Shown one piece after another: positions 22,994-31,915 of a stretch of DNA of 64,000 bases; position 1 is the first letter of the stretch; each line of letters opens with the position of its first letter. A program made the position numbers and the translations under genes. The DNA is from Sinorhizobium sp. RAC02. GTDB taxonomy: Bacteria; Pseudomonadota; Alphaproteobacteria; Rhizobiales; Rhizobiaceae. The notes under the pieces are model-generated. The model did no database searches. It was not told the origin of the DNA and worked only from the letters and a program-made list of their open reading frames with translations. The stretch lies in NCBI RefSeq assembly GCF_001713395.1, contig NZ_CP016450.1:1364001-1428000 (forward strand), in the 5' to 3' direction.

Positions 22994-23383
22994 TCAGGCG
23001 CGGACCGTCGGTTGGCCGGCAGCGGCAAGCGCTGCGAGGTCGGCCGGCTTCAGTTCGACCGATTCGCCGCAGCCGCAGGCGGACGTCTGGTTCGGGTTGT
23101 GGAAGGTGAAGCCGGAGCGCAGCGTCGTCACCTCGAAATCCATCTCGGTGCCGAGGAGATAGAGCACGGCTTCCGGTGCGACCCACACACGGGCGCTGTT
23201 CCGCTCGATCAGGTCGTCCTTGGCGTTCGGTTCGGTCACGAGGTCGATGGAATATTCCATGCCCGCGCAACCGCCCTTCTTGATACCGACGCGAATGCCC
23301 TTGGCGTCAGCGCCGGCATTGTCGACGATCGCCTTGACGCGGTCTGCCGCCGCATCGGTGAGCTTCATAACTGCAAAGGCCAT
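22994..23383 (-). CDS. sufA: SufA, A-type iron-sulfur carrier
   Basis: A 129-residue HesB/IscA-type protein. The three cluster-binding cysteines are at C39 (GGCAGMEYS) and C103/C105 (SACGCGES). It accepts Fe-S clusters from the SufBCD scaffold and passes them on. It is the last gene of the suf run, separated from sufT by 136 bases that include a palindromic repeat, so its expression may be partly uncoupled. Confidence 0.94.
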   Translation of the reverse strand: MAFAVMKLTDAAADRVKAIVDNAGADAKGIRVGIKKGGCAGMEYSIDLVTEPNAKDDLIERNSARVWVAPEAVLYLLGTEMDFEVTTLRSGFTFHNPNQTSACGCGESVELKPADLAALAAAGQPTVRA

Positions 23384-23477
23384 GGGCCATTTCTCCTTCG
23401 ACCTGTCAGGTTCAAGGCCTGACGGTTTCCGAATCCGAATCTAGTGCCGCACGGTTAAGCGATCAATACTGTCTGCC

Positions 23478-23520
23478 GCATGATCTTGTCCGAAAAGCCT
23501 GCAACTTTTCGGGAGCATGC
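23478..23520 (+). repeat. Interspersed palindromic element, copy 2
   Basis: Arms GCATGATC...CCGAAAA and TTTTCGG...GCATGC around GCCTGCAAC. Compared with copies 1 and 3, the inner arm GCAAAA/TTTTGC is replaced by CGAAAA/TTTTCG and the outer arm is GCATGATC rather than GCAATCCC. Pairing is kept, which suggests selection for the hairpin or a second subfamily. It abuts the sufT stop codon, sharing one base with it. Confidence 0.7.
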
Positions 23521-23900
23521 TAGTACCAACCAACAGCAACCTGCGCTTCTTCCGACATGCGGTCGGGCGTCCACGGCGGATCGAAGGTCATCCTGACCTC
23601 CACGCCGGACACACCTTCGACCGCGCTGACGGCATTTTCCACCCAGCCCGGCATTTCGCCGGCCACGGGGCAACCGGGCGCGGTCAGCGTCATGTCGATC
23701 TTGACCATGCGGTCGTCTTCGATGTCGATCTTGTAGATCAGGCCGAGTTCAAAAATGTCGGCCGGGATTTCCGGGTCGTAGACCGTTTTGAGCGCGGAGA
23801 TGACGTCGTCGCTGAGACGCGCCAGTTCGTCGGCCGGGATTGCCGAATGAACGATGCCGTCGCGGACGTCGATCTTGTCTTCCGTTGCGTCGAGGGACAT
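23520..23900 (-). CDS. sufT: SufT-like DUF59 (MIP18) iron-sulfur assembly factor
   Basis: A 126-residue DUF59 protein with the signature VYDPEIPADIFELGLIY and the cysteine region LTAPGCPVAGEMPGW. DUF59 proteins act in Fe-S maturation. In Agrobacterium the gene at this operon position is called sufX. Shine-Dalgarno GGAGGTGG precedes the ATG, and the gene begins 12 bases after sufS. Confidence 0.93.
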   Translation of the reverse strand: MSLDATEDKIDVRDGIVHSAIPADELARLSDDVISALKTVYDPEIPADIFELGLIYKIDIEDDRMVKIDMTLTAPGCPVAGEMPGWVENAVSAVEGVSGVEVRMTFDPPWTPDRMSEEAQVAVGWY

Positions 23901-23912
23901 GGGTCCACCTCC

Positions 23913-25151
23913 TCAGGCAAAAAACTTGCGGGCATGATCAAGCGCGTCGGCGAGAGCATCCACCTCGGCGCGCGTATTGTACAGGCCGAACGATGCACGG
24001 CATGTGGAGGTAACGCCGAAGCGTTTCAAGAGCGGCTGCGCACAATGGGTGCCGGCGCGCACAGCGACCCCTGCCCGGTCGATGACCATCGAGACGTCAT
24101 GGGCATGGATGCCTTCCAGCTCGAAGGAGAAGATCGAGCCCTTGCCCGGCGCCGTGCCGAAGATTTTCAGCGAATTGATCGCCGACAGGCGCTCATGGGC
24201 ATAGTCACGCAAATCCGCTTCATGGACCGAAATCGCCGCGCGGCCGATCTTTTCCATATAGTCGAGCGCATGGCCAAGCCCGATCGCCTGCACGATCGGC
24301 GGCGTGCCGGCCTCGAAGCGGTGCGGCGGCTCGTTGTAGGTGACAATATCCTCGGTGACGTCGACGATCATCTCGCCGCCGCCCTGGAAGGGCCGCATCT
24401 CCTTGAGGCGATCCATCTTGCCATAGAGCACGCCGATGCCCGATGGGCCGTAAAGTTTGTGGCCGGTCATCACGTACCAGTCGCAATCGATGTCGCGCAC
24501 GTCGACCGGCATGTGCACGGCGCCCTGCGAGCCATCGACCAGCACCGGAATGCCGCGCTCGCGGGCGATACGGCAGATTTCCTTGACCGGAACGATGGTG
24601 CCCAGCGCATTCGACATATGCGTGATCGCGATGAGCCTGGTGCGCTCCGTCAGGCACTTTTCGAACTCTTCGATGTGGAACGCGCCCGTCTCGTCCACCG
24701 GCGCCCAGACCAGCTTGGCGCCCTGCCGTTCGCGGATGAAATGCCACGGCACGATGTTGGAGTGGTGCTCCATGATCGACAGTACGATCTCGTCGCCCTC
24801 GCCGATCTTCGGCATGCCGTAGCCGTAGGCAACGGTGTTGATCGCCTCGGTCGAGGATTTCGTGAAGATGATCTCGTCGACAGAGGAGGCATTCAGGAAG
24901 CGGCGCACCTTTTCGCGCGCCGCCTCATAGGCATCCGTGGCAGCATTCGACAGGAAGTGCAGGCCACGATGCACGTTTGCATATTCGTTGGAATAGGCAT
25001 GTGAAATCGCGTCGATCACCGACTGCGGCTTCTGCGCCGAAGCGCCATTGTCGAGATAGACCAGCGGCTTGCCATAGACCGTCTTCGACAGGATCGGGAA
25101 ATCCTTGCGGATCGCCTCGACGTCGTAGGCCTTTGCGGGTGCGTGTTCCAT
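23913..25151 (-). CDS. sufS: Cysteine desulfurase SufS (group II)
   Basis: A 412-residue PLP enzyme that strips sulfur from cysteine for the SUF scaffold. The PLP lysine is in MTGHKLYGPSGIGVLYG near residue 230; the catalytic cysteine is in RAGTHCAQPLLKRFG near residue 370. The start at 25151 has Shine-Dalgarno AAGGAAG; an upstream in-frame extension would run into the palindromic repeat and is rejected. No sufE is visible in the window. Confidence 0.96.
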   Translation of the reverse strand: MEHAPAKAYDVEAIRKDFPILSKTVYGKPLVYLDNGASAQKPQSVIDAISHAYSNEYANVHRGLHFLSNAATDAYEAAREKVRRFLNASSVDEIIFTKSSTEAINTVAYGYGMPKIGEGDEIVLSIMEHHSNIVPWHFIRERQGAKLVWAPVDETGAFHIEEFEKCLTERTRLIAITHMSNALGTIVPVKEICRIARERGIPVLVDGSQGAVHMPVDVRDIDCDWYVMTGHKLYGPSGIGVLYGKMDRLKEMRPFQGGGEMIVDVTEDIVTYNEPPHRFEAGTPPIVQAIGLGHALDYMEKIGRAAISVHEADLRDYAHERLSAINSLKIFGTAPGKGSIFSFELEGIHAHDVSMVIDRAGVAVRAGTHCAQPLLKRFGVTSTCRASFGLYNTRAEVDALADALDHARKFFA

Positions 25152-25167
25152 CTCGACTTCCTTGTTT

Positions 25168-25214
25168 ACGCAATCCCGGACGCAAAACCGCTGCACACTT
25201 TTGCGGGGACTGCT
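25168..25214 (+). repeat. Interspersed palindromic element, copy 3
   Basis: Nearly identical to copy 1 at 15156-15203: the 5' arm CGCAATCCCGGACGCAAAA is identical, the loop differs by one base, and the 3' arm is TTTTGCGGGGACTGCT. It fills the gap between the end of sufD and the start of sufS, so it is transcribed within the suf operon and would form a hairpin in the mRNA. Confidence 0.75.
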
Positions 25215-25218
25215 CCTG

Positions 25219-26493
25219 TTACGCGTGCTTTTCCAGCCAGGCGGCGATGACGCCTTCCAGCGCCTCGACCAGCGGCTCGTCTTCCAGCTCCTCGACGATC
25301 TCGGCGACGAAGGCGTTGACCAGCATGGCGCGCGCCTTGTTTTCCGGGATGCCGCGGGCCATCAGGTAGAAGAGCTGGACGTGGTCGATGTCGATCACGG
25401 TCGCACCGTGGCCGCACTGTACGTCGTCGGCAAAGATTTCCAGCTCCGGCTTGGCGGAGAAATCCGCCTCGTCCGACAAGAGGAGCGTGTTGCACGACAT
25501 CTTCGCGTCGGTCTTCTGCGCATCGGGGGCGACGCGGATCTGGCCCTGGAAGACGCCGCGGGCGCGATCGAAGATCACGTTGCGGATGACTTCCGTCGAC
25601 GTCGTGTGCGGCACGTTGTGACCGACCGTGAAGGTCACGTCATTGTGCGTCTCGCCGCCGAGCAGGTTGATGCCGCGCAGCTGGAGATCGGACCCTTCGC
25701 CGGAAACGACGACATGGATCTCCTGCCGCACGAGCTTGCCGCCGGCATTGATCACGTAGAGGCGAAGTTTTGCATCCGTGCCGAGCGTGATGCGGATCTG
25801 GCCGAGATGCGTGTCCGCACCGCCCTGCCCCTGGAAGATGATCCAGGTGATTTCGGCGCCGTCCGCCAGCGAAATGTCGCTGACCGTCGTCACGAAGGCG
25901 GCGTTATCGCCGGTCGCCACATGGCGCTCGATCACGGTCGCCTTGACGTTTGCGCCAAAGGTTGCCGGGAAACGCGTGTGCGTCTGGCCGGCGTTCTGCG
26001 TCGTCTGGATTTCCAGCGGCGCTGCAAGCTCGGTGCCATCAGGGAAATCCAGCACGAAACCGTCGCGCACGAAGGCACCGTTGATGCGGCCGATCGTGTC
26101 GTCGCTGTCGCGGGCGGTGAGGCCTTCTGCGGCGGTGCCGTCAGCAAGCGCTTCCGCGAAGGTGCGCAGCGTCACGCCATCCACCGAACCGCGGGTATCC
26201 GCAACGCCGTTGACGACTGAAAGCACCGTCGAGCCTTCGACCAGCGGCGCGACCTTGGCGGCGGACGCCGCCGGATCAAACGCAGGCACGGCGCGCAGCA
26301 GCGCCTTGAGGTCCGTATAGTGCCAGGCCTCGACGCGGCGCGTCGGAAGACCAGCGTCCTTGAAGTCGCTGATCAGAATGTCGCGGGCCGCGATTACGGC
26401 ACCATCGCCCGGCAGTTCGCCGATCGCGTGGTCGTAGGCTTCGCAGAGCGCGGTCTCGGCGACCGAGAGCTTCATGCCTGTCTGCATGTTCAT
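25219..26493 (-). CDS. sufD: SufD, Fe-S scaffold complex subunit
   Basis: A 424-residue SufB/SufD-family beta-helix protein, with the C-terminal core RDAQKTDAKMSCNTLLLSDEADFSAKPELEI broken here into recognisable parts CNTLLLSDEADFSAKPELEI and QCGHGATVIDIDHVQLFYL. It forms the SufBC2D scaffold. Shine-Dalgarno GGAG precedes the ATG, and the gene begins 22 bases after sufC. Confidence 0.95.
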   Translation of the reverse strand: MNMQTGMKLSVAETALCEAYDHAIGELPGDGAVIAARDILISDFKDAGLPTRRVEAWHYTDLKALLRAVPAFDPAASAAKVAPLVEGSTVLSVVNGVADTRGSVDGVTLRTFAEALADGTAAEGLTARDSDDTIGRINGAFVRDGFVLDFPDGTELAAPLEIQTTQNAGQTHTRFPATFGANVKATVIERHVATGDNAAFVTTVSDISLADGAEITWIIFQGQGGADTHLGQIRITLGTDAKLRLYVINAGGKLVRQEIHVVVSGEGSDLQLRGINLLGGETHNDVTFTVGHNVPHTTSTEVIRNVIFDRARGVFQGQIRVAPDAQKTDAKMSCNTLLLSDEADFSAKPELEIFADDVQCGHGATVIDIDHVQLFYLMARGIPENKARAMLVNAFVAEIVEELEDEPLVEALEGVIAAWLEKHA

Positions 26494-26515
26494 GAGATTA
26501 CTCCTTCACGATGCC

Positions 26516-27271
26516 TCAGGCAGCGGCATCGATGATGTCGGCATAGCCATTTGCTTCCAGCTCATGCGCCAGCGTCTTGTCGCCGGACTTGATGACCTGG
26601 CCCTTGTAGAGAACGTGGACAGTATCCGGCACGATGTAGTCGAGCAGGCGCTGGTAGTGCGTGATGACGACGACGGCGCGATCCGGCGAACGCAGCGCAT
26701 TGACGCCATCAGCGACGATCTTGAGCGCATCGATATCGAGGCCGGAATCCGTTTCGTCGAGAACGCAGAGCTTCGGCTCGAGCAGTGACATCTGCAGGAT
26801 TTCGGCGCGCTTCTTCTCACCGCCGGAGAAACCGACGTTCAGCGGACGGCGCAGCATTTCCGGCGCGATCTTCAGCTCGGCAGCGGCTTCCTTGACGCGG
26901 CGCATGAAGTCCGGCGTCGTCAGTTCCGCTTCGCCGCGCGCCTTGCGCTGCTCGTTCATCGCGACCTTGAGGAACTGCATCGTGGCGACACCCGGGATTT
27001 CGACGGGGTACTGGAACGCCAGGAAGATGCCCTTGGAGGCACGCTCGGCCGGATCGAGTTCCAGAATGCTCTCGCCATTGTAGAGGATTTCGCCTTCGGT
27101 GACTTCGTAGTCTTCGCGGCCGGCGAGGATGTAGGAGAGCGTCGACTTGCCGGAGCCGTTCGGGCCCATGATGGCGGCGACTTCTCCGGCCTTCACGGTG
27201 AGGTTCAGGCCGCGGATGATCTCGGTGCCGTCTTCGGCGATGCGAGCGTGCAGATTCTTGATTTCAAGCAT
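26516..27271 (-). CDS. sufC: SufC, ABC-type ATPase of the SUF scaffold
   Basis: A 251-residue ATPase with Walker A GPNGSGKST, the SufC-type signature NVGFSGGEKKRAEILQM, Walker B LCVLDETDSGLD and the switch histidine in VVVITHYQRLL. It powers the SufBC2D scaffold in the cytoplasm. The start MLEIKNLHA at 27271 is preferred over a nine-residue upstream extension. The small membrane-protein gene ends 49 bases upstream. Confidence 0.96.
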   Translation of the reverse strand: MLEIKNLHARIAEDGTEIIRGLNLTVKAGEVAAIMGPNGSGKSTLSYILAGREDYEVTEGEILYNGESILELDPAERASKGIFLAFQYPVEIPGVATMQFLKVAMNEQRKARGEAELTTPDFMRRVKEAAAELKIAPEMLRRPLNVGFSGGEKKRAEILQMSLLEPKLCVLDETDSGLDIDALKIVADGVNALRSPDRAVVVITHYQRLLDYIVPDTVHVLYKGQVIKSGDKTLAHELEANGYADIIDAAA

Positions 27272-27320
27272 GGTTTCTCGGTCCTGCGTTCGGAGCACAT
27301 CCAGCGCTCCCGTCTTGGTT

Positions 27321-27482
27321 TCAGAAGCCGAGGAAGAAGTGAACCACCGGAAGCATCATGGCGGAGAAACCGCCGAGGCCAAGCCCCACCACCGTGCGTA
27401 CCGCCAAATTCCGAAGATTTGGCGCATACGCTGCTAGTCCACCGCACACCACGGCATAATACGTCAGATTGACCGGATCCAT
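27321..27482 (-). CDS. Small membrane protein inside the suf operon
   Basis: A 53-residue reading frame starting MDPVNLTYYAVVCGGLAAY and ending VVHFFLGF. A GGGAGA Shine-Dalgarno lies seven bases before the ATG. Two hydrophobic segments (about residues 8-20 and 31-52, the second rich in glycine) suggest one or two membrane passes; one cysteine (C13). It lies on the suf strand, between the 201-residue unknown gene and sufC. I do not recognise a family. Coding potential is supported by the SD, the position and the hydrophobic pattern only. Confidence 0.6.
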   Translation of the reverse strand: MDPVNLTYYAVVCGGLAAYAPNLRNLAVRTVVGLGLGGFSAMMLPVVHFFLGF

Positions 27483-27561
27483 GTCGTCTCTCCCGATGAG
27501 AACCGTACCCGTCTATTATAACGGATCACGGGAAAACTTCATCGAACGGCTTGTCCGGCCA

Positions 27562-27581
27562 CCCGGCGGAAAACCGCCGGG
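27562..27581. other. Intra-operon hairpin between the unknown suf gene and the small ORF
   Basis: A perfect eight-pair stem CCCGGCGG/CCGCCGGG with an AAAA loop. No T-run follows on the minus strand. In the suf mRNA it could protect the 3' end of the sufB section or reduce read-through into sufC. The surrounding gap (27483-27642) holds nothing else that I can identify. Confidence 0.55.
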
Positions 27582-27642
27582 GTATTCTTGTCAGCTATGG
27601 TCCCTATCGTGGGCCAGCCAACAAATTCCCTGTTTCATGCAC

Positions 27643-28248
27643 CTACCGTCCTTTTCCGAAGGAAGCACCGGCACCGAAAAGGTGGCTGCCGGCGAACCGG
27701 TTGAGAAAAGCGTCGAAATCCCGATCCTTGTGGATTTCGGCAACGATGGACGTCCAGCCCGCCCTGATCTTGGCATCGATGCAATCTATCAAGGCGATGA
27801 CGCTGTTTCGGTCGTCGGAAATCAGATTCAGAGCCGGCGGCACATCAGCCTCGCCGCAGTTCTTTCGAACGAATTCACGCGACCAGACACCAAGGTCGGC
27901 CCATTCAAATCCGCGCGTGGAACTGCGCTTGATGACCTCTCCCAAGTAGGCGACAGCCGCCGTCATCGGATTGTTGAGGCCATTGGTCAAAATGGGCGAC
28001 GTCTTGAAAAGCCTAAGCTCCTCCCGCCCCATCAGCGAAAAGATCATGTCGACTTCGGAAAGGGACGCCAGCGAATAATCAAGTTTCTTCGGCATCTTGC
28101 CGAAGAAGGGGATTTTGAATCTCCTGACGTACTTTTCCGGCATCGCCCGAACGGTCGCGAAGCTTTCCGCTGCAGCAGTCACCTTCCGGATAAACTCCGG
28201 ATTGGCTTTTGCATCGAAGCCTGCGCTCACGACCGAAGTCTGGCTCAT
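27643..28248 (-). CDS. Unknown 201-residue protein coupled to sufB
   Basis: A soluble protein of mixed alpha character with no signal peptide or membrane helix. Recognisable stretches are KIPFFGKMPKKLDYSLASL, VDMIFSLMGREELRLFK and a glycine-rich C-terminus. Two cysteines, C131 and C156. I cannot assign a family. Its ATG shares one base with the sufB stop (TGATG), so it is translated with sufB. In the known Agrobacterium order, sufB is followed directly by sufC, so this gene looks like an insertion. By eye its base composition is slightly less GC-rich than its neighbours. Confidence 0.8.
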   Translation of the reverse strand: MSQTSVVSAGFDAKANPEFIRKVTAAAESFATVRAMPEKYVRRFKIPFFGKMPKKLDYSLASLSEVDMIFSLMGREELRLFKTSPILTNGLNNPMTAAVAYLGEVIKRSSTRGFEWADLGVWSREFVRKNCGEADVPPALNLISDDRNSVIALIDCIDAKIRAGWTSIVAEIHKDRDFDAFLNRFAGSHLFGAGASFGKGR

Positions 28249-29717
28249 CAGCCAACGCTCCCTTCCAGCGAGATGCCGATCAGCTTCTGCGCCTCGACGG
28301 CGAATTCCATCGGCAGTTCCTGGATGACTTCCTTGACGAAGCCGTTGACGATTAGCGCGATCGCCGCCTCGGTCGGGATGCCGCGCTGCAGGCAATAGAA
28401 CAGCTGGTCCTCGGAGATCTTCGAGGTGGTCGCCTCGTGCTCGAACTGGGCCGTCGCGTTCTTCGCCTCGATGTAGGGCACGGTATGCGCGCCGCACTTG
28501 TCGCCGATCAGGAGCGAGTCGCACTGCGTGAAGTTGCGGGCGTTCTCCGCCTTGCGGTGGGCCGAAACCTGGCCGCGATAGGTGTTGTTGGAGAAGCCGG
28601 CGGAAATGCCCTTCGAGACGATGCGGCTCGACGTGTTCTTGCCGAGATGGATCATCTTGGTGCCACTGTCGATCTGCTGGTGACCGTTCGAGACCGCGAT
28701 CGAGTAGAACTCGCCGCGCGAACCGTCGCCGCGCAGGATGCAGGACGGATACTTCCAGGTGATCGCGGAGCCGGTCTCGACCTGCGTCCACGAAATCTTG
28801 GAGTTCTTGCCCCGGCAATCGCCGCGCTTGGTGACGAAGTTGTAGATGCCGCCCTTGCCGTCCTTGTCGCCCGGATACCAGTTCTGGACGGTGGAGTACT
28901 TGATCTCGGCATCATCGAGCGCAACCAGCTCGACGACGGCAGCATGCAGCTGGTTTTCGTCACGCTGCGGCGCGGTGCAGCCTTCGAGATAGGAGACGTA
29001 GGCGCCGTCTTCGCAAATGATCAGCGTGCGCTCGAACTGGCCGGTGTTCTTCTCGTTGATACGGAAGTAGGTGGACAGTTCCATCGGGCAACGAACGCCC
29101 TTCGGCACGAAGACGAACGAGCCGTCCGTGAAGACGGCGGAGTTCAGCGTCGCATAAAAGTTGTCGGTCGTTGGGACGACGGTGCCGAGATACTTTTTCA
29201 CGAGATCGGGATGCTCGCGGATGGCTTCGGAGATCGACATGAAGATCACGCCGGCCTTCTTCAGCTCTTCCTTGAAGGTCGTGACGACCGAGACCGAGTC
29301 GAACACGGCGTCGACGGCGATCTTCGAGGTCTGCACGCCGGCCAGGATTTCCTGCTCGCGCAGCGGAATGCCGAGCTTCTCGTACATTTTCAGAAGTTCG
29401 GGATCGACTTCGTCAATGGACTTCGGGCCGCTCTGGTTCTTCGGAGCGGCATAGTAGTAGAGGTCATTGAAGTCGATCTTCGGATATTCGACGCGCGCCC
29501 AGGTCGGCTCTTCGAGCGTCAGCCAGCGCTGGTAGGCAGCAAGGCGCCATTCGAGCATCCATTCCGGCTCGTCCTTCTTGGCGGAAATGAAGCGGATGAT
29601 CTCCTCGGACAGGCCCTTCGGGGCCTTTTCCATTTCGATCGTCGTCTCGAAACCGTATTTGTACTGGTCGACGTCAATCTGACGGACCTGATCGATCGTT
29701 TCCTGCACCGCAGGCAT
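28248..29717 (-). CDS. sufB: SufB, Fe-S cluster scaffold protein
   Basis: A 489-residue scaffold subunit, typical length, with [37 protein letters not shown], the core [20 protein letters not shown] and the [17 protein letters not shown] motif. It builds the nascent cluster with SufC and SufD. The start [11 protein letters not shown] at 29717 is used rather than a 36-residue upstream extension. It is coupled downstream to the unknown 201-residue gene; 150 bases separate it from the first gene of the operon. Confidence 0.97.
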
Positions 29718-29867
29718 ATCGTTCTCCAATCTCGCCGGATCCAAGGTCCGGCAGTTTGTCAACGTGTGGCGGGTGTTCCGCCGGTTATGTAAGGGCCAAA
29801 GGGCGGTTTTCCCACCTTTTGGCAAGCGAAAACTTGAGTTTCCGCAAGATTCCGCTCAGGCCGCATT

Positions 29868-31025
29868 TCACGTCATGCGCCGCCTGGAGACGACACGCGA
29901 AAAGGCTGCCAGAAAGCGTTCCACATCGGCCGTGGTCGAACCCGGACCGAGCGAGACACGAAGCCCGCCAGGGGCCGCATCGAAGCCCATCGCCGTCAGC
30001 ACGTGGCTCTGTCCGACCTTGCCGGACGAGCAGGCCGAGCCCGCCGACAGCGCGATACCTTCGAGATCGAAGGCGATCTGCCCGGTTTCCGATTTCAGGC
30101 CCGGCAGGCTGAAGAAGGAGGTGTTGGCGACCCGCTCTCCATCCGCGCCGTGGATGATGATATCGTTCGTTGTCGTTCGCATGCCGGCTTCCAACGCATC
30201 CCGCAAACCGGCGATCCGGGCATTGCGCTCTGCCAGACCGGTCAGGGCAGCACGGGCGGCGGCGGCAAAGCCGGCGAGCGCTGCCGGGTTCTCCGTGCCG
30301 GAGCGATGCCCCTTCTCCTGCCCGCCACCGCGGATCAGCGGCGCCGGCATCAACACCTCGCCACGCGAGACGAGCGCGCCAACGCCCTTCGGGCCGCCCA
30401 GCTTGTGCGAGGAGATGATCAGGAAATCCGCGTCGAGCGCCTCTACATCCACCGGCATGCGGCCAACCGCCTGAACGGCATCGACGACCAGCAGGCCGCC
30501 GTGACGACGCACGATTTCCGTCGCGGCCTTGACCGGCTGCACGATACCCGTCTCGTTGTTGGCGAGCATGACGGCGACCATCGGCAGGCCCCTGGCCTTG
30601 TCGTGGGCCTGGAGGAGCACGCCCAATGCGTCGAGATCGACGATGCCGGCACGGGTGACAGGAATGGTTGTGACATCCTCGCGGGAAAAACGTCCGCCTT
30701 CGCGGATCGCAGGATGCTCAATCTCGGACACATAGAGATGGCCGATCGAAAGCGGCGTACGACCCATGCGGTAGTGAGGCGTCAGAACGAGGTTTGCGGC
30801 CTCCGTCGCACCGCTCGTGAAGATCACATGGGCAGGCGCTGCGTTGACGAGAGCGGCCACGTCGCGGCGCGCGGCTTCCACCAGCATGCGCAGCGCCCGG
30901 CCTTCACCATGAACAGACGACGGGTTGCCGACCATGTCGAGCGCCGCGACAGAGGCCTCGCGCGCCGCCGGCAACAGGGGTGCCGTGGCGTTCCAGTCCA
31001 GATATGTGCGCTCGATCTTCGTCAT
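29868..31025 (-). CDS. sufS2: Cysteine desulfurase of the IscS/NifS group, first gene of the suf operon
   Basis: A 385-residue PLP enzyme. The PLP lysine is in IISSHKLGGPKGVGALV and the mobile-loop catalytic cysteine in SAGSACSSGKVGQSHVL, the group I (IscS/NifS) pattern, unlike the group II SufS at the other end of the operon. In Agrobacterium the gene in this place is called sufS2. The promoter region upstream carries a RirA-type box. Confidence 0.93.
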   Translation of the reverse strand: MTKIERTYLDWNATAPLLPAAREASVAALDMVGNPSSVHGEGRALRMLVEAARRDVAALVNAAPAHVIFTSGATEAANLVLTPHYRMGRTPLSIGHLYVSEIEHPAIREGGRFSREDVTTIPVTRAGIVDLDALGVLLQAHDKARGLPMVAVMLANNETGIVQPVKAATEIVRRHGGLLVVDAVQAVGRMPVDVEALDADFLIISSHKLGGPKGVGALVSRGEVLMPAPLIRGGGQEKGHRSGTENPAALAGFAAAARAALTGLAERNARIAGLRDALEAGMRTTTNDIIIHGADGERVANTSFFSLPGLKSETGQIAFDLEGIALSAGSACSSGKVGQSHVLTAMGFDAAPGGLRVSLGPGSTTADVERFLAAFSRVVSRRRMT

Positions 31026-31146
31026 CCGTTTTCCGTGCCCGCGTAGCCAAGTTCCATGCGACGTGCATTTTTCTTGAAATTGCCGTCTGGCTTGCCTTAT
31101 GACACCAAGCTCACGGCGCCCGATGCGCCTATACAGTTTCGAATTG

Positions 31147-31186
31147 TTCTAAACTAGGTTCTAGAAAAGCTGACTGCTTTCGTCAA
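31147..31186 (-). promoter_or_regulatory. suf operon promoter with RirA-type box and Irr-like half-sites
   Basis: On the minus strand, TTGACG (31186-31181) and TAGAAC (31163-31158) are spaced by 17 bases and form a plausible sigma-70 promoter for sufS2. TGA-N9-TCA, the iron-responsive operator pattern bound by RirA in rhizobia, occupies 31171-31185 and overlaps the -35. TTTAGAA (minus strand, 31153-31147) and TTCTAGAA (31159-31166) around the -10 resemble Irr ICE half-sites; that part is weaker. Confidence 0.65.
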
Positions 31187-31237
31187 GACTTCAGTTGACA
31201 AGAATCCGGTCCGGAACGCGAACTTGCCGGAGTAAGA

Positions 31238-31915
31238 ATGCCCGAAATCATCTTCAACGGACCCGCCGGTCGCCTCGAAGGCCGTTACCAGCCGTCCAAG
31301 CAGAAGAACGCCCCCATCGCCATCGTGCTGCATCCGCACCCGCAGTTCGGCGGCACGATGAACAACCAGATCGTCTACCAGCTCTTCTACATGTTCCAGA
31401 AGCGCGGTTTCACGACGCTGCGCTTCAACTTCCGCAGCATCGGCCGTAGCCAGGGCGAATTCGACCATGGTGCCGGCGAACTGTCCGATGCGGCTTCCGC
31501 ACTGGACTGGGTGCAGAGCCTGCATCCCGATTCGAAGAGCTGCTGGGTTGCCGGTTATTCCTTCGGCGCCTGGATCGGCATGCAGCTCTTGATGCGCCGC
31601 CCGGAAATCGAAGGCTTCATGTCGATTGCGCCGCAGCCGAACATCTACGACTTCTCCTTCCTCGCCCCTTGCCCGTCGTCCGGCCTGATCATCAACGGCG
31701 ATGCCGACAAGGTGGCACCGGAGAAGGACGTCAACGGCCTGGTGGAAAAGCTGAAGACGCAGAAGGGCATCCTGATCACCCACCGCGTGGTGCCGGGCGC
31801 CAACCACTTCTTCAACGGCCAGACCGAAACGCTGATGGCGGAATGCGAGGACTATCTCGACCGCCGCCTCGCTGGCGAACTGACGCCGGAACCGGCCGCC
31901 AAGCGCATCCGCTAA
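31238..31915 (+). CDS. Alpha/beta hydrolase (YfbB/dienelactone hydrolase-like)
   Basis: A 225-residue hydrolase with the oxyanion segment LHPHPQFGGTMNN, the nucleophile elbow VAGYSFGAWIGMQ and the C-terminal histidine in VPGANHFFNGQ. This subfamily is common in alphaproteobacteria; its substrate is unknown. It is divergent from sufS2 and shares the 212-base intergenic region with the RirA-type box, so co-regulation by iron is possible. A strong terminator follows. Confidence 0.88.
   Translation: MPEIIFNGPAGRLEGRYQPSKQKNAPIAIVLHPHPQFGGTMNNQIVYQLFYMFQKRGFTTLRFNFRSIGRSQGEFDHGAGELSDAASALDWVQSLHPDSKSCWVAGYSFGAWIGMQLLMRRPEIEGFMSIAPQPNIYDFSFLAPCPSSGLIINGDADKVAPEKDVNGLVEKLKTQKGILITHRVVPGANHFFNGQTETLMAECEDYLDRRLAGELTPEPAAKRIR

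Follow-up and report, generated by a model that had tools for sequence, protein, structure and literature searches.

A rare gene inserted behind sufB in a Shinella genome, at a hotspot for small unrelated genes

We describe a rare gene inserted between sufB and sufC in the suf operon of a Shinella genome, at a junction that is an insertion hotspot where small genes have been repeatedly gained and lost, and whose product is linked by its core motifs to an uncharacterised superfamily. We consider it likely that this is a horizontally acquired accessory gene that hitchhikes at the sufB stop within the hotspot, and that its product does a stand-alone job rather than taking part in Fe-S assembly. 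The window is the whole stretch of 64,000 nucleotides that was analysed, and all coordinates (Table 1) refer to it.

The gene and its setting in the suf operon

The window genome is a Shinella, and its SufD and the one from Shinella sp. CPCC 101442 (L002) are 100% identical. The gap between sufB and sufC measures 976 bp in the window versus 324 bp in L002, and comparison with L002 and five other named Shinella loci shows a clean insert that lies after the sufB stop and before the hairpin, with one long gene as its content. The first-pass annotation of this DNA had proposed an unknown gene inserted in the suf operon and placed for coupled translation, and our comparison bears this out. The sequence confirms the details it gave: the frame is open for 201 codons, its ATG and the sufB stop share one base (TGATG), and the downstream spacer measures exactly 160 bases (27483-27642), with the hairpin inside. 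The frame that follows is a small ORF of 53 aa. The neighbours of the gene in the window are sufB on one side and the 53-aa frame and sufC on the other. In a terminator scan the hairpin scored as terminator-like on the + strand alone, the operon strand giving no such call, and no Rfam element was found in 27200-28700. The 53-aa frame is itself membrane-like and recurs in several Shinella; Shinella sp. WSJ-2 (L006) has it in interrupted form.

Table 1. Features around the sufB-sufC junction of the window
Feature	Position	Strand	Remarks
Gene under study, 201 codons + stop	27643..28248	(-)	open frame, homologues, profile recovery
sufB, 489 aa; its TGA and the ATG of the gene overlap by one base	28248..29717	(-)	
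Small ORF of 53 aa (MDPVNLTYYAVV...), next frame before sufC	27321..27482	(-)	
sufC	26516..27271	(-)	
sufD	25219..26493	(-)	
GC-rich hairpin	27562..27581	(-)	common to most of seven Shinella rows compared
AAGGGAG, Shine-Dalgarno-like, within the last sufB codons	28258..28264	(-)	nine bases upstream of the ATG
Insert relative to L002, ~650 bp net	27590..28260	(-)	alignment breaks at 27589 and 28261

Of 21 Shinella genomes, seven have a sufB-sufC gap of 73-77 bp and ten one of 320-328 bp, while gaps of 504, 577, 700 and 976 bp occur once each, the last being that of the window genome; in the 700-bp gap lies a different gene, whose start also overlaps the sufB stop as TGATG. The insert is not framed by any repeat pair, and the idea that the gene is the cargo of a transposable element was set aside, there being neither terminal repeats nor a transposase at the insert. 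Over positions 23100-31800, the suf block is 91-99% identical to L002 per 300-base bin and the flanking bins 66 to 94%, while identity to S. kummerowiae (L003) along the same stretch is more even. Because identity to L002 is high inside the block and lower in the flanking bins, an exchange of the suf block by recombination is suggested.

A search of 5.8 billion proteins returned three close homologues (P0002-P0004), at 90, 76 and 79% identity, in a type of search that relies on short exact words and can miss remote relatives. The homologues are 200-201 aa long and align over the length of the gene product without internal gaps, with at most one extra N-terminal residue. A further search with the four-sequence profile added two matches, both below significance. 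Whole-genome searches of 61 relatives, 21 Shinella and 394 members of its family each found the gene in one genome, which was always that of the window, and the genome_contigs collection gave no match. Its GC3 is 69.8; the 45 other frames of the window that were compared average 80.1 (sd 3.8), and only one of them lies below the gene. The rarity and the low GC3 fit a recent arrival from outside, and we infer that the gene was transferred horizontally. It has no match among viral contigs, plasmids and phages, which does not by itself settle a phage or plasmid origin; nor was P0005, a remote relative discussed below, matched in plasmids, or the gene product itself (P0001) in PHROGs.

Rarity, low GC3 and a fast-changing spacer might also be expected of a spurious or decaying frame that arose as the spacer expanded and makes no functional protein. 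We regard this as very improbable, in that full-length homologues persist at 76-90% identity without internal gaps and the core motifs of the remote superfamily are kept. Judged by those homologues and by the recovery of the gene with a profile from which it had been left out (see below), a chance frame is ruled out, and 27643..28248 reads as a genuine gene.

The last sufB codons of the window are GGG AGC GTT GGC, where six other Shinella loci have GGC or GGT, TCG, GTC, and GGC or GGT. Relative to these six, five synonymous changes at sufB nucleotides 1458-1464 create the motif AAGGGAG, which is absent from all of them. By its sequence and place, AAGGGAG at 28264..28258 can act as the Shine-Dalgarno of the gene. 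It need not have been selected for the gene, because comparable sufB endings with AGC or AGT exist in other Rhizobiaceae with no such gene at that spot (L050). A scan for promoters of the sigma-70-like type found none in 27300-28700. The gene would most likely be co-transcribed with suf, and would be translated by ribosomes finishing sufB or by ribosomes recruited at AAGGGAG; we infer that it is co-expressed with sufB.

The sufB-sufC junction as an insertion hotspot

In 42 of 80 Rhizobiaceae loci, sufB and sufC stand more than 200 bp apart, these 80 being the best 80 of 496 confirmed relatives and related to each other. Elsewhere in the operon, gaps of this size occur among the same best 80 of 496 at iscS-sufB in two loci, at sufC-sufD in none, at sufD-sufS in two, at sufS-sufT in none and at sufT-sufA in nine. 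The first-pass annotation had given sufB running directly into sufC as the known Agrobacterium order; that order is seen, with a gap of ≤150 bp, in 35 of the best 80 of 496, and a longer spacer stands in the remaining 45. A tree of sufC, sufD and sufS with 81 rows requires at least 32 changes in what the junction contains, a figure that depends on 14 labels set by hand and may drop by about one, L009 having later joined the MSEAD group. The occupants are mutually unrelated, and include GIY-YIG nucleases (PF01541), a nucleotidyltransferase (PF18765) beside a protein whose HEPN-like match stays under the cut-off, a J1-like protein, and small proteins that look coiled-coil-like or membrane-like.

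The pattern extends beyond the Rhizobiaceae. A gap above 300 bp is found in 16 of 120 further alphaproteobacterial loci, which come from among the listed matches of 220 class genomes with SufB, with some loci close to contig ends and the bottom of the list left out and short assemblies under-represented; by eye, the contents of this set include a tautomerase-like and a PdxJ-like protein. Frames of at least 50 aa whose start overlaps the sufB stop number, by a mechanical count, 11 in the best 80 of the 496 Rhizobiaceae relatives and 11 in the 120 other alphaproteobacterial loci. Since the junction takes unrelated genes and overlapping frames are not unusual there, coupling to sufB says little about function, and is weak evidence of a role in Suf.

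The J1-like gene, which is the occupant in L006, was considered as a generally Suf-linked gene and rejected: it matched in 6 of 289 class genomes, and the flanks of the seven loci taken from these showed no suf gene (L118 was not re-matched). Exact 23-nt palindromes flank the GIY-YIG genes in the gap, with ATCCTCGGGCTTGTCCCGAGGAT preceding the gene and ATCCTCGGGACAAGCCCGAGGAT following it. This arrangement is present in 11 of 12 Rhizobiaceae loci (L035 has none after the gene) and in the Shinella locus L094, and not in L148 or L151; the bracketed loci are L021, L022, L027, L047, L048, L049, L050, L052, L054, L060, L080 and L094. Of 61 relatives, 26 carry related GIY-YIG genes, with up to four per genome. 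Finally, sufT-sufA is a second, weaker hotspot, with gaps above 200 bp, and up to 1385 bp, in nine of the best 80 of 496 (L004, L035, L037, L040, L043, L055, L067, L068 and L080).

A divergent branch of the AYLGEVI superfamily

Sequence comparison identifies the gene product as a divergent member, or new branch, of the uncharacterised AYLGEVI superfamily, with which it shares the core motifs LDYS..SL..VD and AYLGEVI..R...W. Profile A3, built without the gene and its close family, recovers the gene at E 9.7e-7 as the only match in its genome, and hhalign connects the family of the gene with the superfamily at 96.7% (E 3.8e-10). The LDYS..SL..VD and AYLGEVI core is common to the gene and to the P0005 family, which comes mostly from metagenomes and, by source name, from Dactylosporangium and Paraflavitalea. 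The gene product differs from that family in its longer N-terminus and its C-terminal part: the match spans positions 34-112 of the 157 in the profile, and the conserved P and K of the C-terminus (P128 and K131 of P0005) are not matched. In an ungapped alignment made by eye, Leu153 and Cys156 would face these two residues.

Prediction from the four close sequences alone gave a useless structure (mean pLDDT 41.5), while the addition of 22 remote members raised the mean pLDDT to 67.1 with a pTM of 0.71; since the quality came with those members, the predicted fold is partly borrowed from them. Foldseek returned nothing at E <0.001 from the PDB and viral models, and the superfamily profile found nothing under E 0.2 among the sequences of solved structures. 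The sole match of P0001 among solved structures, 35 residues of CagY repeats at E 0.0076, was taken for chance. No obvious signal peptide is seen by eye in P0001.

Eleven loci with matches to profile A3 were checked, and sufB was found in three (L121, L122 and the window's own locus, L124) and not in the other eight; a 24% sufC-like match in L120 was taken for a common ABC ATPase. In L121 and L122 the superfamily member sits between sufB and sufC. Indeed, a member occurs in 20 of 105 genomes of f171, a distant alphaproteobacterial family (L121, L122 and L251-L268), and within the stretch examined it is flanked by both sufB and sufC in 17 of the 20, by sufB only in L257, and by sufC only in L258 and L266. 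This branch shares the superfamily core and the junction with the window gene. It differs in that most of its members have, by eye, a lipoprotein-like N-terminus, and in a length of about 229-269 aa, with one frame of 312; a SnoaL-like gene precedes the member in 13 of the 20 loci. Because most N-termini look lipoprotein-like, the f171 members probably act outside the cytosol.

The profile of the gene's own family ranks five soil-type proteins, with P0005 first, above the best f171 member. A tree that unites both suf-linked groups is not rejected, and outscores the free quick tree by 4.79 log units (p-AU 0.666), on long branches. The generality of the hotspot and the apparent difference in compartment lead us to favour two separate captures at one hotspot over one old Suf-linked branch. 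A single ancient Suf-linked branch, whose cytosolic and exported forms would modulate Fe-S assembly or iron stress in Alphaproteobacteria, appears distinctly unlikely.

Function and comparison with known systems

Under the hitchhiking reading that we prefer, the gene would have landed at the sufB stop by horizontal acquisition, and would ride the sufB transcript and its ribosomes by way of the overlapping stop and start and the Shine-Dalgarno-like motif. Its product would probably work independently, perhaps in a protein-binding or an immunity-like, neutralising role, and not in Fe-S assembly. Two findings speak against the gene being a mere hitchhiker: the f171 branch occupies the same junction under a joint tree that is not rejected, and the four close sequences are well conserved, unlike those of a decaying passenger.

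The first-pass annotation had ventured that the gene may act with SufB. More fully stated, a lineage-specific Suf accessory, produced in proportion to SufB, would bind it or the SufBC2D scaffold, and would modulate or protect cluster assembly under iron or oxidative stress. The stop-start overlap, the Shine-Dalgarno-like motif, the strong conservation among the four sequences and the second branch in f171 would all suit such a protein, as would the listing of a gene in the same Caulobacter slot as iron-responsive with suf in the accessible part of one report (PMC3751524). Nonetheless, 20 other Shinella and 393 other genomes of the family would have to do without it, unrelated genes fill the slot elsewhere, and the f171 branch looks exported and therefore could not meet cytosolic SufB. 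The two cysteines that were suggested as possibly important, C131 and C156, do not help the case: only C156 is invariant in all four close sequences, and P0004 has Tyr in place of C131, so that the two are unlikely to work as a pair. The junction is a hotspot for unrelated occupants, overlapping frames are not unusual there and the close family is nearly an orphan; the f171 branch stands on the side of the original proposal. The gene probably does not work with SufB, and we consider a Suf accessory unlikely.

An immunity-like role is a guess from one uncertain context. In L126 (745-1851), a superfamily member starts three bases after a 226-aa frame that, by eye, resembles the terminal part of a polymorphic toxin. 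A protein of the orphan immunity or antitoxin type might neutralise a toxin met from outside and exploit steady suf expression, and the nucleotidyltransferase with a weakly HEPN-like neighbour, another occupant of the hotspot, points the same way; nucleotidyltransferases with a HEPN partner form the MNT/HEPN toxin-antitoxin pairs. Set against this, neither the 226-aa frame nor the member beside it matches any Pfam or NCBIfam model, padloc gave no match for P0001, P0003 and P0004, no toxin gene adjoins the window gene, and most other superfamily contexts inspected show no toxin-like gene. We hold this possibility to be rather unlikely.

Regardless of what the product does, its position behind sufB alone does not assign the gene to the iron-sulfur machinery. 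Unrelated small genes have docked again and again at a single junction within a core operon, some with starts that overlap the sufB stop. Much guessing of gene function relies on the rule that genes which share an operon or are translationally coupled also share a function, and at this junction the rule does not hold. The site is also a natural catalogue of small genes of unknown role, among them a superfamily present there in two distant lineages.

Known families and systems provide partial parallels. DUF6278 (PF19794) is weakly matched by a remote relative, P0006 (E 0.0074, 16.4 bits versus a cut-off of 26.4), and not by P0001 itself or by any of P0001-P0004 in Pfam. DUF3806 (PF12713), which we take to be the C-terminal part of BT_1490 (PDB 3hlz), has no match in the gene or anywhere in the window genome, and was rejected by sequence, three reference proteins scoring at best E 0.016 with the superfamily profile. 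Foldseek's own list for the predicted fold holds nothing significant. For the GIY-YIG genes with their palindromes, which possibly form a small mobile unit, REP elements with their transposase offer a comparison.

The closest positional parallel comes from Caulobacter. The literature as available to us, in part as excerpts, yielded nothing on this gene or on a general sufB-sufC hotspot, and did bring up the Caulobacter insert. According to the accessible portions of two reports (PMC11475020, PMC3751524), CC_1863 / CCNA_01939, annotated as an ADP-ribosylglycohydrolase, lies between the Caulobacter sufB and sufC, and RT-PCR of some junctions supports a single operon. A table of iron-responsive genes lists the slot gene at 8.30, sufB at 7.81 and sufC at 7.89 (PMC3751524, available in part). 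CC_1863 and the window gene share the slot and differ in annotation, and are likened by position and annotation only. From this listing of another occupant of the slot alongside sufB and sufC, it is fair to predict, by analogy, that expression of the window gene is linked to iron as well.
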